From: a virus
IMG/VR virus record: IMGVR_UViG_3300040801_001812
Coordinates: 1 to 64,000 of that record
Length of the DNA stretch: 64,000 nt
Direction: 5' to 3' (one strand)
Shown: in pieces, positions 4,227-45,202 of the stretch
Layout of the letters: the number at the start of each line of letters is the position of its first letter
Numbering within the stretch: the stretch's first letter is position 1
Notes under the pieces: model-generated
What the model saw: only the letters and a program-made list of their open reading frames with translations
Told to the model about the DNA's origin: nothing
Database searches by the model: none
Made by a program: the position numbers and the translations under genes

Positions 4227-4602
4227 GGAGCCTCCTCGCTTTGATGGTGAAACGAGGCTTATCCTGCTTCATAGGGGAGGGTGCCTCAACGAGGTGGTAC
4301 CTGCCGTCGTTGGGCGGCTCATCGAACCCATCGATGTACCGGCAGACGTGACCGACAACGCGCTTCGCACGCTCCAACTCGACCAAGACCATCTCCATGA
4401 AGTCCAACTCCGAGTGCATCTCGAAGCGTCGTCCATAGATCCGGTCTTCGATCATGATACGCGCCTTGCCAATAGCGTCAAACGAGGCCATGACCTGCTG
4501 CTCGGCAGCACGCTTGTACGAACCATCCTTATTGCGGAAGTCCTTAATGACCGTTGGTTTCCCCTCGTGAAAAAACAGATCTTCAACCCGCATGTCATCC
4601 AT
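4219..4602 (-). CDS. Hypothetical protein
   Basis: 127 residues, charged and largely helical in composition (ELDFMEMVLVELERAKRVV). It ends with a basic tail (FTIKARRLRG). No recognised motif. Confidence 0.6.
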   Translation of the reverse strand: MDDMRVEDLFFHEGKPTVIKDFRNKDGSYKRAAEQQVMASFDAIGKARIMIEDRIYGRRFEMHSELDFMEMVLVELERAKRVVGHVCRYIDGFDEPPNDGRYHLVEAPSPMKQDKPRFTIKARRLRG

Positions 4603-39236: not shown

Positions 39237-41045
39237 TCACATCATCTCATCGTCTTCGGTGACGTCGAACAAGTTGACCATGTCCGCCTCATCCATGAGG
39301 CCCGCAGCCATCTTCTTGGCTGTGGTCTTGGTCACCTTCTCGAATGCTTCTGTCAGATCACGGGTGCTCTTCGAGCAGAACGCTTCCGTGAACTTGAAGT
39401 CGTGCAGGATATCAGTCTGTTCGGGAAGCTCGTGAGCCGCTGCTGAGCTATGGAACGGAGCATCAGCCGGAGCCGCCAGACCGAAGAAGTTGGGCGTACC
39501 CTCGATGTCAAAAGCCAAGGACGACTGCACGTTGTGGATGGGAAGAACACCCGTGCTCGAACCGTTCCGAGTGGAACCCGAGTAATGGCTTGCCATCTTG
39601 TCGGCAAACGACTCACGGGAGATCACACCAGGGATGCTGCCATCGCGCATATCCTCCGGGGTAACAGACTCCATTACCGATCCGTTGAGGAAGTCTGCGA
39701 TGTTGCCGCTGTCGTCCTTTTCTCCGAAAAGGAACCGGAACATGGTCATGGCAGTCGGCAGGATGTTGCGCTCGGTTTCCGTCCCAAGGAACGATGGGGT
39801 CACATAGACCATGCTGAGGGTCTCAACGTACTGTCCTTTTGCGTTCTGACTGTACTTCCGACCCTGACCGCGAACCGGAGCCGTAGGGAACCCCCCGAGG
39901 TTGAATCCCACGGGGAACGGGCCACCGTAGGAAGTGGTAAACATGGGGAAATCGCGTTCCCAAAGCATCGACATCCCATACATGTCATACTTGGAAGCGA
40001 AACGGTTATGACCCCGGATACGCCGACCAGCACCGATGGGGTCCAAAGCAAACTCACCGACTCGGGTCGGCGGGATCTGTTCTCCAGCCTCACCGGCTTG
40101 GAAGTCGAATTGAGTGTTCCAGGCACAGTACTGAGTCGCTTGCGACCACAGAGCCTTGAACACATCCGAGAGCGACCGAAGGATGTCCGGTGGCTTACCC
40201 CACCGGCTCACGGAAGTGAGCTTGTAGGGCTGACCGAAAGGCACCGTGCGCTTGTGGCGACTGCCGGTCGAGCGAAGTCGGATCTGGTACGACATCATCG
40301 TGGGCTGAGTGTTGCACACTGCGTGGCGGACATCCGACCCAAGACGCTTCTTCGTAACCTGGGTGCCAGCAGGAACCAGCACGGGCAGGAGGAAGCAGAC
40401 CGGGGGCCAACCACTGAGGTTGGTCAACTCGTCCGAAGCCATGATGCCATAGGGCTTTTTGAAGGTGAAGACCACGGCCATCAGGGCGGCAACAGGGCCA
40501 CCCTTGAGGAACCGCTTCTCGTTACGAATAAAGGTCTCTGGGATGTCCCCTGTTTTGTGATAGATATGGCGAAGAACGTCACCCTGGAAGGAAGAACGGT
40601 TCTTCACCGGGTTGCCGTGGTCCATGTTCAGGGTAAGATCCGGCATAACGTGGAGCAGGTTGCCCATCCCCTCGGGAGCGAGGAGACAGTTCGGGTCCAC
40701 GTTGATGTGCTTGTTGGCGTTGAGGAAACGCATCACGTTGTCGAAGAACGCAGCGTTGTCACCGCCACCAGTCGGAGCCTTCCAAATCAAGGCATTGGCC
40801 AATTCGCTCTCACCCGTACCCAGCGTGAGCTGAGAGACGGGTCCGAAGACCGACATGGTCTCAGCGAAGTGACAGGCGTTAGTGAACGCCTGCTTGAACT
40901 TCGCCTCACCGTGCAGGATGTCGAGGAACCCATCCTTCTCGATCTTCGTCTTGGTGTCTCCGGACTTTCGGATGCACCCGGACATCAGAATCGAGAACGG
41001 GTCGAGGACGACTCCTGCGGTGGATTGCACCAATTGGGTGTTCAT
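39237..41045 (-). CDS. Large unknown protein, MoxR/VWA operon member
   Basis: 602 residues behind AGGAGGACC. Globular composition with no long coiled coil. Notable stretches are IWKAPTGGGDNAAFFDNV, VMPDLTLNMDHGNPVKNR and a C-terminal TDILHDFKFTEAFCSKST. I do not recognise it. Position directly downstream of the VWA/metallopeptidase gene suggests that it is a partner or substrate of the MoxR-VWA pair. Confidence 0.65.
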   Translation of the reverse strand: MNTQLVQSTAGVVLDPFSILMSGCIRKSGDTKTKIEKDGFLDILHGEAKFKQAFTNACHFAETMSVFGPVSQLTLGTGESELANALIWKAPTGGGDNAAFFDNVMRFLNANKHINVDPNCLLAPEGMGNLLHVMPDLTLNMDHGNPVKNRSSFQGDVLRHIYHKTGDIPETFIRNEKRFLKGGPVAALMAVVFTFKKPYGIMASDELTNLSGWPPVCFLLPVLVPAGTQVTKKRLGSDVRHAVCNTQPTMMSYQIRLRSTGSRHKRTVPFGQPYKLTSVSRWGKPPDILRSLSDVFKALWSQATQYCAWNTQFDFQAGEAGEQIPPTRVGEFALDPIGAGRRIRGHNRFASKYDMYGMSMLWERDFPMFTTSYGGPFPVGFNLGGFPTAPVRGQGRKYSQNAKGQYVETLSMVYVTPSFLGTETERNILPTAMTMFRFLFGEKDDSGNIADFLNGSVMESVTPEDMRDGSIPGVISRESFADKMASHYSGSTRNGSSTGVLPIHNVQSSLAFDIEGTPNFFGLAAPADAPFHSSAAAHELPEQTDILHDFKFTEAFCSKSTRDLTEAFEKVTKTTAKKMAAGLMDEADMVNLFDVTEDDEMM

Positions 41046-41054
41046 ATGGTCCTC

Positions 41055-43670
41055 CTATTCGGACAGTCGGTCGATGAGGCCCAAGAGCTTCTCCTGAATG
41101 TAGAGAGGAGCTGTCAGCTCCGTACCGTGCCCCGGAGGGAACATGGAGAGCAGCTCGTACGTGTTGTAGTAGTGCTTCACACCCTCGTCGCCCAGCCCGA
41201 GACCACCAATGTGAATCCCAGCCAATTCGATACGGCGGATGGCGTACTTCAAGAACCGAGACTGGAGATTCGGGTTACCGGCATACGGCAGACCGTCCGA
41301 CAGCACGATCATGACCTTCCGGTCTTCCTCACGTGCGATGATACGGCTCGCCGCCCAAAGGAGGGACTCACCGTCCGAGTTGGTATGCGGCTGGATGTTC
41401 TGTCCCTTGTAGGTGATGTTGGTGTGCTGGTTCATGGCGATCATCTGCGGCTCGGAACTCGTCCACGGATCGTCGAAGTCCTTGAAGAGGAAATTGACGA
41501 TGTCGAAGCAACGAGAGTAGTCCCGCGAATAACTGCCCCAACCAAGGCCAGGGATGTCCTTGGTGGTGTAGCCCATCACCGAGAACGGCACCTTGATCGT
41601 CTGAAGCAGACGAGCAATCGAACGGGCAGCAGCGTGAGCCACGGCGAACTTCGTGGCCCACTGCTCGTTCTGCCTCTGGAACATGAGTCCATTGATATGC
41701 GACTCCATAGACCCAGAGCAATCAATACAGAGCTGAACCACGACACCGTGACGGCTGGTCACTGTCTCGTTCCTACGGAGATAAAGTGGGCGACCGTGTG
41801 CCTTACCAGCCTTGATAGGCTGAAGCATCCGAGGGTTGACCCGGTTACCAGACCATGCCTTACCCGGTGCGCCCTGGAACTTCCCAACCAGCTTACGAGC
41901 AGCGGGACCGAGGGACGAGGGCATAAGCGTCCGGATAAAATTATCGTAGCGGGTGAAGATCGTGCTCTCGCCGATGAGAGCATTGAGGTCCAGACCCGCG
42001 ATGACGTGCGTAGCACACCCTGGTGTAAGTTTATCCAAGTACTCATCGGGCATACCCATGATGTCCTTGGCGTGCTCAATGACCGGAGAAGCACCACCGG
42101 AACTGTTGCCCCCACCAGGGGCAGCGGGGCTGTCGGAGGGGTCACCCTCTTCATCCAGGCCCCCGCCCTCGCGCATCAGCTCAGACATGTCAACCTTGGC
42201 GTCATCTACCCAGTCCATCACCTGATCGAGCGCGGCATTCCGCTTGTCGGTAGAATCAGACGCCTGACCTTCCTGGCCAGCCCCTCGGGAATCGCCTACG
42301 GCGTCTTCATCGTCGGCGTCCTCGCTACCTGAAGAAGACTCTCCGTGAGAGCTTCCGTTCGAGTGTCCTGGAGCCGGATCATCTCCTCCGGTCTCATCAG
42401 TGTCACCCGCTCCTGAGCCTCCTCCAGAGCATTGATCACCGTCCTCGCCATCAGATTCGGAAGATCCGTCTTCTTCATCATCGTCGCAATCGTCTCCGTC
42501 CAGAGGATCATCTCCTTCGTCGTCTTCGTCATCCTCGTCGTCGCGTCCTGCGCCTCCAGAGTCAGAGTCTTGTTCCTCCTCATCGTCTTCTCCAGAGCCG
42601 CCTGAAGGATCCTGATCCTCATCTGATCCCTCATCTTCGTCGAAGGGATCAAACTCGCCATCGTCATCTTCAGGTTCGTCATCGTCATCGTGATCGAATT
42701 CATCGTCGTCCTCGTCCTCCTCCTCATCATCGCGGTAGTCGTCGTACTTCGACTCCTGAGGGGTATCGCTGGGGGTAAAGTCGTCATCGAAGGGACTGAA
42801 CCCATTGCTGTCGCCCTGGCTCTGGTCCTCCGGTTGCTGCTGGCCTTCACCCTCACCGTCCTCGCCCTGTTCCTCATCGTCCTCCTGGGGAGCGTTGAGG
42901 TCGGGAAGAACCTTGTCAAGGATGCGGGTCATCGCCTCGTCGGTCAAACGACCCAGCTCTTCAGACGACATGGCGCAGACATCCGTGATGTCACCAAAGA
43001 CATCATCCGCAACATCACAAGCCCACTCAACGTGATCCGGAACCTGCGTACGGACGTAGTTCCGGTCCCGTGTGCCGTGCGTCCCACCAAGAAGGTGGTG
43101 CGCGTGCATCTCACAGACCCAGAAGGGGCTAAGCGGGATCTTATCCTGACCCCGCTCTTCTGCGAGATCCTTAGCCTGCTCGATGGTATCGACCACGAGC
43201 GTGTCGCACCCAGCGGCAATCGGACCACCGATGAAGTGCTTCTTCGAGCCAGGGAACTTGCGGACCATGAGTTGCTCAATCCGAGCGTCCTCAAGGAGGT
43301 TATGGAAGAACTTAGCCGCTTCGAGGATCTTGTCGGGCAGACCCCCGTAGCCACGCTCTTCGCACAGTTCCTTCATCTTGCTGTTATTGACGAAATCCCT
43401 GATCATAGGCTGAAGGGAAGGCGTGTAGATCAGGTGACCGGCCTCGTGGTCAACGTGCCACGAGACAATCAAGAGTGCTCGTGCGGACTTCACCGAGGAG
43501 GGAAGAACGATTTTCTTCTCCTCCATGACCGCATAGGGGTAAGGGGTGTTGGGGTCGATCACGACGGTGACACCGCAATCGGCCATGCCTGTCGCCACAC
43601 CCTGAAGAACCTGAGCGGTGGGAATCTTATCCCCAAACAAATCACGTAAGTGTTTAACACTCAGGCTCAT
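41055..43670 (-). CDS. CobT-like protein with metallopeptidase motif and VWA domain
   Basis: 871 residues. Near residue 75 is HEAGH, an HExxH zinc motif in WHVDHEAGHLIYTP, followed by FHNLLEDARIEQL, as in CobT-like and MoxR-partner metallopeptidase/VWA proteins. Residues about 260-480 are extremely acidic (Asp/Glu/Ser runs). The C-terminal VWA domain has an intact MIDAS motif, DCSGSMESH near 653, with a later VLSDGLPY. Such proteins work with a MoxR AAA+ ATPase in metal-chelatase-like or protein-remodelling machines. Its first 17 bp overlap the HNH gene, which supplies its GGAGG ribosome site. Confidence 0.8.
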   Translation of the reverse strand: MSLSVKHLRDLFGDKIPTAQVLQGVATGMADCGVTVVIDPNTPYPYAVMEEKKIVLPSSVKSARALLIVSWHVDHEAGHLIYTPSLQPMIRDFVNNSKMKELCEERGYGGLPDKILEAAKFFHNLLEDARIEQLMVRKFPGSKKHFIGGPIAAGCDTLVVDTIEQAKDLAEERGQDKIPLSPFWVCEMHAHHLLGGTHGTRDRNYVRTQVPDHVEWACDVADDVFGDITDVCAMSSEELGRLTDEAMTRILDKVLPDLNAPQEDDEEQGEDGEGEGQQQPEDQSQGDSNGFSPFDDDFTPSDTPQESKYDDYRDDEEEDEDDDEFDHDDDDEPEDDDGEFDPFDEDEGSDEDQDPSGGSGEDDEEEQDSDSGGAGRDDEDDEDDEGDDPLDGDDCDDDEEDGSSESDGEDGDQCSGGGSGAGDTDETGGDDPAPGHSNGSSHGESSSGSEDADDEDAVGDSRGAGQEGQASDSTDKRNAALDQVMDWVDDAKVDMSELMREGGGLDEEGDPSDSPAAPGGGNSSGGASPVIEHAKDIMGMPDEYLDKLTPGCATHVIAGLDLNALIGESTIFTRYDNFIRTLMPSSLGPAARKLVGKFQGAPGKAWSGNRVNPRMLQPIKAGKAHGRPLYLRRNETVTSRHGVVVQLCIDCSGSMESHINGLMFQRQNEQWATKFAVAHAAARSIARLLQTIKVPFSVMGYTTKDIPGLGWGSYSRDYSRCFDIVNFLFKDFDDPWTSSEPQMIAMNQHTNITYKGQNIQPHTNSDGESLLWAASRIIAREEDRKVMIVLSDGLPYAGNPNLQSRFLKYAIRRIELAGIHIGGLGLGDEGVKHYYNTYELLSMFPPGHGTELTAPLYIQEKLLGLIDRLSE

Positions 43671-44157
43671 CTACCCACCTCCAGGTCTTGCCGCGTTTGA
43701 TGTCAAATATGACATACTTCGATACTCCAAACATCCGACCAATCTCGGTCTGGGCATAGTGACCCTCACTTAACATGCGTTTTATCACCCACACAGCGAA
43801 CTGCGTAAGGACCGAACCGTGGCCATAGGCATTGCCGTGCCTGACCCTATCGCGCATGTTGTCTTTTGGGGTTCCCCAGTAGAGGTTGCTCAGACAGTTA
43901 TTCGAAACGTCGCCGTCCCGGTGACAAGCGAGCTTGTCACTGGGTCCGACGAACGCTTCGAGGACCAGACGATGGCCACGTACGCTCTTACGTACACCAT
44001 CGACGCAGAGCACATAAGACGCATAGCCATCCTTGTCGCGCTTAGGCTTTAGGATGCCTCCTGCTGTAGCGTGGCGTGTGATACTTTTCACATGCCCCTG
44101 GTTGCTGACTTCATAATACCCCTCGAAATTTACGACGGGTTGCCACAAGATTTTCAT
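43654..44157 (-). CDS. NUMOD4-HNH homing endonuclease
   Basis: 167 residues. N-terminal NUMOD4 (WQPVVNFEGYYEVSNQGHVK), HNH_3 core with GHRLVLEAFVG, CHRDGDVSNN and LSNLYWGTPKDN, and a C-terminal helix-turn-helix (IGRMFGVSKYVIFDIKRGK). Freestanding HNH enzymes of this type copy their own gene into related phages by cutting the target DNA. It sits between the MoxR gene and its VWA partner, where the two are otherwise expected to be adjacent, and ends inside the VWA gene. Confidence 0.9.
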   Translation of the reverse strand: MKILWQPVVNFEGYYEVSNQGHVKSITRHATAGGILKPKRDKDGYASYVLCVDGVRKSVRGHRLVLEAFVGPSDKLACHRDGDVSNNCLSNLYWGTPKDNMRDRVRHGNAYGHGSVLTQFAVWVIKRMLSEGHYAQTEIGRMFGVSKYVIFDIKRGKTWRWVDEPEC

Positions 44158-44167
44158 TTTTGCCTCC

Positions 44168-44212
44168 TTAGGCTACGAACAGGTCCCTCAGGTGTTTGAC
44201 GCTCAGTCCCAT
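44168..44212 (-). pseudogene. Remnant 5' end of the VWA gene
   Basis: ATG 44212 behind AGGAGG opens a 14-codon frame, MGLSVKHLRDLFVA, then TAA. It matches the first 12 residues of the VWA protein (MSLSVKHLRDLF) except for residue 2. This is the original start of the VWA gene, cut off by the HNH insertion, with the ribosome site still in place. Confidence 0.8.
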
Positions 44213-44221
44213 AAGAACCTC

Positions 44222-45202
44222 CTAAGCGTTCGCCTTTCGTGCCGGGTCGGCCAGAGCCTGCCTGTCGGCCAGCTCTTCCACAACGACCTTGTCCTTGTCG
44301 GTCGGGAGCTTCTGGAGGATGGTAGCCTCCAATGCCTGCGGCCCGAGGATCTGGAAGTACTTCGCGAAGTGAAGCACCATCCTAACGGACAGCGGAGCCG
44401 TCAGTTCATCCTGCCTCCACGCTGACAGCGTGGAATCGTAGAAGTTGACCACGGCTTCGACAAACTCGTCCTTGAGCTTGCGACCGCTGAACTCCACCTT
44501 AGAGAGAATCACTTTCATGTTCTTCGCGGGCAGCGGGTTCATCGGAAGAACGAGGTGGAACCTGTTGAGCTGGGCGAAGTTCTGCGAACCCGTACCAGCG
44601 TACAGCCCAGTGTCGTCACCCAACCCTCTGGTGTTGGCTGTTGCCACCACGATGCAGTCGGGGTGCCGGGGGATGAACTCATCCCTCTCTGAGAGGAAGA
44701 GACCGGGGTCGTGGTCCTCAAGAAGCCTCTGAAGGCCGATAGCCATCTCAGCCCTTGCGGCGTCCCACTCATCCAACACCACCAAACCGGGGCGTTGGAT
44801 CGCGTTGACGAGAGCCGTCCACTTCCAGCCATCGTCGTCCGGGTCGTTCTCGTTGATGAGACCGAAGTACCCGAACACCTCCGGTGAGCCAAGCTCACCA
44901 TGGAAGTTGATCCTGGTGACGGGAAGGTGGAGCTTCGCAGCCAACTGGGTCGGCAACATGGTCTTGCCAACCCCGGTCGGCCCCACCAAGAGGGCGTTGT
45001 CCCTCTCCTGAAGAACCAGGAGGAGGGAGATCACGTGCTCGGACGGGAACCTGTAGTACGGGTCCACGGCGGGCACAAGAGACCGGAGTCTCACATCCTC
45101 GGGGTCGCTCTCATCGAACGATCCCACGGGGATCTGGAGTTTCGCTGCGTTCTTCTTGAGAGCCTTGAAGACGGTGCCAGCGGCTACGGTTTTGACTTCC
45201 AC
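44222..45202 (-). CDS. MoxR/CobS-like AAA+ ATPase
   Basis: 326 residues from GTG 45202, 6 nt after AGGAG. Walker A GPTGVGKT (74-81), Walker B LVVLDEWD (139-146), and a MoxR-style GELGSPEVFGYFG between them, with a sensor segment IVVATANTRGLGDD. MoxR ATPases pair with VWA proteins encoded next to them. Here the partner is at 41055-43670. Promoter at 45231-45259. Confidence 0.88.
   Translation of the reverse strand: MEVKTVAAGTVFKALKKNAAKLQIPVGSFDESDPEDVRLRSLVPAVDPYYRFPSEHVISLLLVLQERDNALLVGPTGVGKTMLPTQLAAKLHLPVTRINFHGELGSPEVFGYFGLINENDPDDDGWKWTALVNAIQRPGLVVLDEWDAARAEMAIGLQRLLEDHDPGLFLSERDEFIPRHPDCIVVATANTRGLGDDTGLYAGTGSQNFAQLNRFHLVLPMNPLPAKNMKVILSKVEFSGRKLKDEFVEAVVNFYDSTLSAWRQDELTAPLSVRMVLHFAKYFQILGPQALEATILQKLPTDKDKVVVEELADRQALADPARKANA

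Follow-up and report, generated by a model that had tools for sequence, protein, structure and literature searches.

An HNH endonuclease gene in the start of a phage VWA gene, with a diverged replacement of the severed codons, as a probable natural counterpart of home-and-rescue

The fungal mitochondrial mobile open reading frame (mORF) with a foreign C-terminus is the nearest known kind of element to the one described here. Such mORFs carry foreign C-termini in Allomyces atp6 and in Glomus atp6, atp9, cox2, and nad3; in Glomus atp6, the inserted and native ends are 63.5% identical in DNA, and a foreign origin was proposed (PMC3630166). Free-standing homing endonucleases of the HNH (mob) and GIY-YIG (seg) types are known from T-even phages, in which co-conversion of flanking sequence is typical (PMC2988022); the main text of that review contains no occurrence of 'duplicat'. 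Engineered home-and-rescue gene drives, such as HomeR, have also been described (PMC7968924). A partial literature search found no phage or bacterial precedent for the arrangement reported below, and no gene-start version of it.

This study concerns a 64-kb stretch of viral DNA (the window), in which an HNH gene lies in the start of a VWA gene together with a diverged replacement of the 12 codons that it appears to have severed, an arrangement that is very probably a natural counterpart of home-and-rescue. As in the fungal mORFs, an endonuclease gene in a coding sequence is accompanied by a replacement gene end, with the native end displaced behind, and the fungal layout equals that of three further cases in which a C-terminus is replaced (SpikeBT, Pseudomonas endophytica, and L188). 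In the window it is the N-terminus that is replaced, so this locus falls outside the C-terminal mORF type. The fungal elements are mitochondrial, encode LAGLIDADG or GIY-YIG enzymes, and are C-terminal only, whereas the present cases occur in phages and prophages, encode NUMOD4-HNH enzymes, and replace gene starts too; a start replacement needs a new ribosome site, and the native start can drive the endonuclease gene. The T-even mob/seg system is similar in its intron-less phage HNH genes, overlapping neighbours, and probably coupled translation, but the T-even endonucleases are described as intergenic or gene-splitting (mobE in nrdA of Aeh1 and mobA in gene 60). HomeR is similar in that a homing element in a target gene restores the function of that target; it is CRISPR-based and man-made, whereas in the phage cases a short gene end is replaced and the source appears natural.

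The initial annotation had stated that the HNH gene separates MoxR from its VWA partner, and both the gene order and the domain matches agree with this (Table 1). The HNH protein contains NUMOD4 (PF07463, 3.2e-13) and HNH_3 (PF13392, 6.7e-7) in one polypeptide, the combination that characterizes the NUMOD4-HNH family, and matches phrog_59 (2e-47); it is the only NUMOD4 gene in its own 139.5-kb record. The HNH gene ends 17 nt into the VWA gene, and the proposal that its stop overlaps the VWA start while the HNH gene supplies the ribosome site is in line with the 17-nt overlap and with GGAGG at 43682-43678. As the stop of the remnant overlaps the HNH ribosome site, termination-reinitiation is possible. 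The ends of the inserted element are ambiguous by 1-2 nt, and by comparison with the HNH-free L005, L006, and L007 the empty site reads GACCTGTTCG joined directly to GGGATAAG.

Table 1. Features of the VWA locus in the window.
Feature	Position	Strand	Basis or remark
VWA / CobT-like gene, 871 aa, in frame thanks to the rescue start	41055..43670	-	Pfam CobT_C 4e-16
Recoded VWA start copy (rescue end), MSLSVKHLRDLFG	43634..43670	-	26/37 nt to remnant, 11/12 residues
Inserted element (inferred): leader, HNH gene, and recoded VWA start	43634..44175	-	comparison with HNH-free L005/L006/L007
HNH homing-endonuclease-like gene, 167 aa	43654..44157	-	NUMOD4 + HNH_3, PHROG 59
GGAGG within the HNH gene, ribosome site of the restarted VWA gene	43678..43682	-	sequence
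Ribosome site AGGAGG of the HNH gene (TAAGGAGG)	44163..44168	-	overlaps remnant stop TAA; sequence
Native VWA start remnant, 14-codon ORF MGLSVKHLRDLFVA followed by a stop	44168..44212	-	native part nt 1-37 (44212-44176)
AGGAGG, native ribosome site for the displaced start of VWA	44218..44223	-	sequence; layout as in HNH-free L005/L006
MoxR stop	44224-44222	-	overlaps native VWA ribosome site
MoxR-like AAA ATPase gene, upstream neighbour	44222..45202	-	Pfam AAA_5 9e-12, PHROG 249

The middle of the VWA protein contains a long acidic low-complexity stretch rich in Asp/Glu/Gly/Ser (42300-42900), which is also present, though poorly aligned, in L005 and L006. A gene similar to the one downstream of VWA (39237-41045) is found in the same order in both of these relatives; together with MoxR and VWA, it seems to form a conserved cassette of three genes in these large phages.

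The remnant and the VWA restart share 11 of their first 12 residues, with Gly2/Ser2 as the exception, and their DNA is identical at 26 of 37 nt with a longest common run of 6 nt. Of the 11 codons in common, seven are spelled differently for the same amino acid (S4, V5, L8, R9, D10, L11, F12), exactly as had been noted initially; the accompanying description of a 14-codon remnant with an intact ribosome site that repeats the first 12 VWA residues also stands, with one residue different. In the six-frame translation of the window, SLSVKHLRDLF was matched at 11/11 and 10/11 at these two places only. The next-best match reached 6/11, so the repeat is real and a chance origin is ruled out; misassembly is ruled out as well, since it would not give a synonymously different copy. 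The rescue codons are A+T-rich for this genome, in which TTA makes up 1% of Leu codons, and their third-position G+C (GC3) is 0.36 versus 0.82 in the remnant.

HNH-free relatives were found via MoxR, namely L005 (67% identical) and L006/L007 (64%), and the VWA protein is 55% identical over its length to that of L005. In all three, the MoxR stop, the ribosome site, and the VWA start are directly joined and run on into the VWA gene, which bears out the initial view that the HNH gene is an insertion. The HNH gene is absent at this site in L005, L006, and L007 and no NUMOD4 occurs elsewhere in their records, a sporadic presence that is characteristic of the NUMOD4-HNH homing family. Concerning the identity of the native copy, L005 shares the 5' context of the remnant (TAGGAGGTTNTTATG). 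Where the copies differ (nine sites in nt 7-37), L005 agrees with the remnant and the restart in a ratio of 6:3, and L006 in a ratio of 5:2 with two sites matching neither; over nt 22-37, beside the insertion point, L005 matches the remnant at 15/16 positions and the restart at 10/16. The initial expectation that HNH-free VWA starts would match the remnant was thus supported by the context and by most informative sites, but not by the three of nine (L005) and two of nine (L006) that fit the restart; no relative carrying the recoded start without the HNH gene was found among L005 and L006/L007. As the codon test used nine sites per relative, was only moderately lopsided, and relied on distant relatives (MoxR 67%/64%), codon evidence alone gives moderate support to the remnant as the native start, whereas synteny supports it strongly. 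Since both the synteny of the relatives and most of the informative sites match the remnant, the remnant is taken as native and the restart as having come with the insertion.

No empty VWA allele from the same species was found. With the whole VWA protein as a query, viral contigs yielded nothing beyond distant partial matches, since the query patterns lay partly in the acidic repeat; the VWA N-terminus alone gave no match, and no phage record matched either. A degenerate DNA pattern for VKHxRDLFG revealed no relatives beyond L005-L007, and its other matches were rejected as unrelated proteins containing VKHLRDFFG.

Based on these comparisons, an HNH homing endonuclease gene has been inserted in the VWA coding sequence 12 codons from its start, as part of an element made up of the HNH gene and a 3'-terminal replacement of the 12 severed codons. 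What remains of the old VWA start is a short ORF that would lead ribosomes on to the HNH gene; the full VWA protein is restored by the replacement start, whose ribosome site lies inside the HNH gene. The replacement is a diverged copy, probably from the VWA gene of another phage. In its general form, such an element sits inside a gene, close to one end, and carries a diverged version of that end, so that the protein is kept while the endonuclease gene takes over the native signals. With an exact copy, the insertion site would be restored next to the HNH gene and a direct repeat would be available for deletion; a diverged copy avoids both. Because 11 of 37 bases differ, the replacement in the window would not simply rebuild the insertion site, and the rescue copy probably escapes both recutting and the recombination with the old start that would delete the element. 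We infer from this arrangement that the endonuclease cleaves the native site but not the rescue copy, and that the element spreads by homing; it is plausible, as proposed initially, that the divergence protects against self-cleavage.

The same anatomy, with distinguishable native and rescue copies, recurs in other phages. Approximately 220 related HNH loci (junction sets of 108, about 19, and 80) were screened by comparing the translated sequence before and after the HNH gene at the junctions only, with permuted locus pairs as the null. The null maximum was 37 in the 108-locus set (mostly bacterial contigs, plus phage records) and 42 in the 80-locus set (viral contigs); the about 19 further bacterial loci had no null of their own and were judged against both maxima. 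This design replaced a first, loose screen for end duplications, which was swamped by G+C-rich low-complexity matches, and an alignment of nine diverse HNH proteins was rejected as a scan query because it was too divergent. Seven further cases, comprising four gene starts and three gene ends, either exceeded the permutation null or were borne out by a relative, giving with the window eight cases in unrelated genes (five starts and three ends). The replaced stretches are short, spanning about 12 to 54 codons.

Besides the window, the start cases are a Corynebacterium prophage gene (statistic 45.7, null maximum 37), terL of a Bacillota prophage (L174/L181; 106.2, judged against the nulls of the other sets), lysin B (L240; 92.6, null maximum 42), and a gene identified by reading as a YqaJ-like exonuclease (L196; 54.9, null maximum 42). 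The end cases are the helicase of Mycobacterium phage SpikeBT (73.6, null maximum 37), which already stood out among the 15 phage/viral loci first examined, the gene of L188 (53.5, null maximum 42), and a P. endophytica prophage gene (L077), whose statistic of 29.0 is at about the 99th percentile of the null and which was counted because of its comparison with phiAH14a and not on the null. At the window and these seven loci, two copies of a gene end flank the endonuclease gene and the native copy is displaced, the arrangement of a gene-end-carrying mobile ORF. Most of the screened HNH loci had no detectable end duplication.

The native and rescue copies were settled by HNH-free relatives in three further cases, the Fromanvirus helicase, the Pseudomonas prophage gene, and lysin B. 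In every one of these comparisons, the displaced copy is the native end, and the copy in the working gene moves with the HNH gene. The SpikeBT helicase ends with ADPSGRLYAELKFKGETMSIKDYG; a second copy, ADPSGRLYAELKFDGSKMEIKDF, forms the end of the HNH ORF that follows. The displaced helicase end matches HNH-free relatives at 65/72 (Bxb1), 67/72 (Niza), and 66/72 nt (Paraselene), versus 50/67, 51/67, and 50/67 nt, respectively, for the rescue end of the working gene; the other three helicase relatives point in the same direction. The rescue helicase peptide was present in full in nine of 1010 matching records, all of which carry two copies and an HNH-bearing neighbour. An HNH-free record with the complete rescue peptide, which would have spoken against the initial interpretation had it been extended to SpikeBT, was not found among these 1010 records. 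For the P. endophytica prophage gene, the HNH-free phage phiAH14a agrees with the displaced end at 48/48 nt and with the working-gene end at 27/48 nt.

For lysin B, the displaced start matches that of the HNH-free Brocalys at 37/54 aa and 119/162 nt, and the restart at 29/49 aa and 83/147 nt; the restart is nearer to lysin B of another lineage (Bora 40/54 aa) and to that of Hlubikazi (43/54 aa). The rescue end of lysin B thus belongs to the element and appears to be foreign, derived from another lysin B lineage, in which case its divergence need not have been selected. Hlubikazi, like Leozinho, has an HNH gene between lysins A and B. In both Mycobacterium phages (L267 and L268, respectively) the HNH gene overlaps the lysin B start, and in Leozinho the MRID... 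segment before the HNH gene resembles a native start of lysin B that has decayed.

In the Corynebacterium, YqaJ-like, and lysin B cases, the HNH protein continues in frame from the native start, and in the window and in terL the HNH gene re-initiates behind the remnant. In L054, L196, and L240, the HNH ORF opens with the native start of the host gene, which runs in frame into NUMOD4; therefore, annotation will assign the N-terminus of the host gene to the endonuclease. In the Bacillota prophage L181, the terL rescue copy behind the HNH gene meets an in-frame TAG at nt about 4292-4330, directly ahead of the continuing Walker A sequence (GGS*SAGGGKS), which may mean either a broken terL or a scar.

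Concerning the role of the divergence, it is possible, though we would give it only a minor share of our confidence, that it chiefly prevents loss of the element by direct-repeat recombination rather than recutting. The longest exact runs between the copies, measured in four cases at 6, 10, 6, and 8 nt, are short for homologous recombination, but this is compatible with cleavage resistance too, and the two cannot be separated by sequence. Slightly less likely again is the strong form of the initial interpretation, in which the element would have duplicated the start of its target gene, after which synonymous changes that abolish cleavage were selected. The shared codons in the window differ only synonymously, and four of the changed ones adjoin the insertion point (L8, R9, L11, F12), a pattern that would fit selection for a resistant copy. 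However, the lysin B rescue start from another lineage required no recoding, the rescue copies of other cases also change amino acids (five codons in SpikeBT, five in P. endophytica, and four in terL), and the low GC3 of the window rescue codons is as expected of a foreign donor. A foreign origin of the window rescue start is therefore the favoured reading on the lysin B and GC3 evidence.

Doubling of the start at insertion followed by divergence of both copies in place would also leave two starts, but such drift is very unlikely. The remnant is too short for a functional VWA protein and should gather amino-acid changes under drift, yet its codons 3-12 are intact at the protein level while 9/30 bases differ between the copies; in P. 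endophytica, all of the divergence is on the rescue side, and an equal distance of HNH-free relatives from both copies, tested in the closest cases, was not seen. NUMOD4-HNH genes often sit in group I introns, but a self-splicing intron with the repeat as exon mimicry is scarcely credible here, since the window gave no Rfam group I/II intron match (E up to 1) and none of the other scanned loci gave one at the gathering threshold. In addition, the rescue copy brings a start codon and a ribosome site of its own, and splicing would render it superfluous.

Homing endonucleases are thought to persist in conserved genes via introns, inteins, or a position beside the gene. The phage HNH elements would represent a third solution, purely at the DNA level, by carrying a diverged replacement of the severed gene end, and would thus be a natural parallel to home-and-rescue gene drives. 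Whether home-and-rescue is a standing strategy of intron-less phage HNH endonucleases, which would aim at conserved sites close to the ends of genes, bring along a diverged replacement end that resists cleavage, and so persist in indispensable genes with neither intron nor intein, appears to us evenly balanced. Resistance of the target by sequence divergence would be directly testable in mycobacteriophages with and without the element, such as SpikeBT and Bxb1. Further, in some phage genes, the 10-50 codons at the start or at the end would have a history different from that of the remainder.
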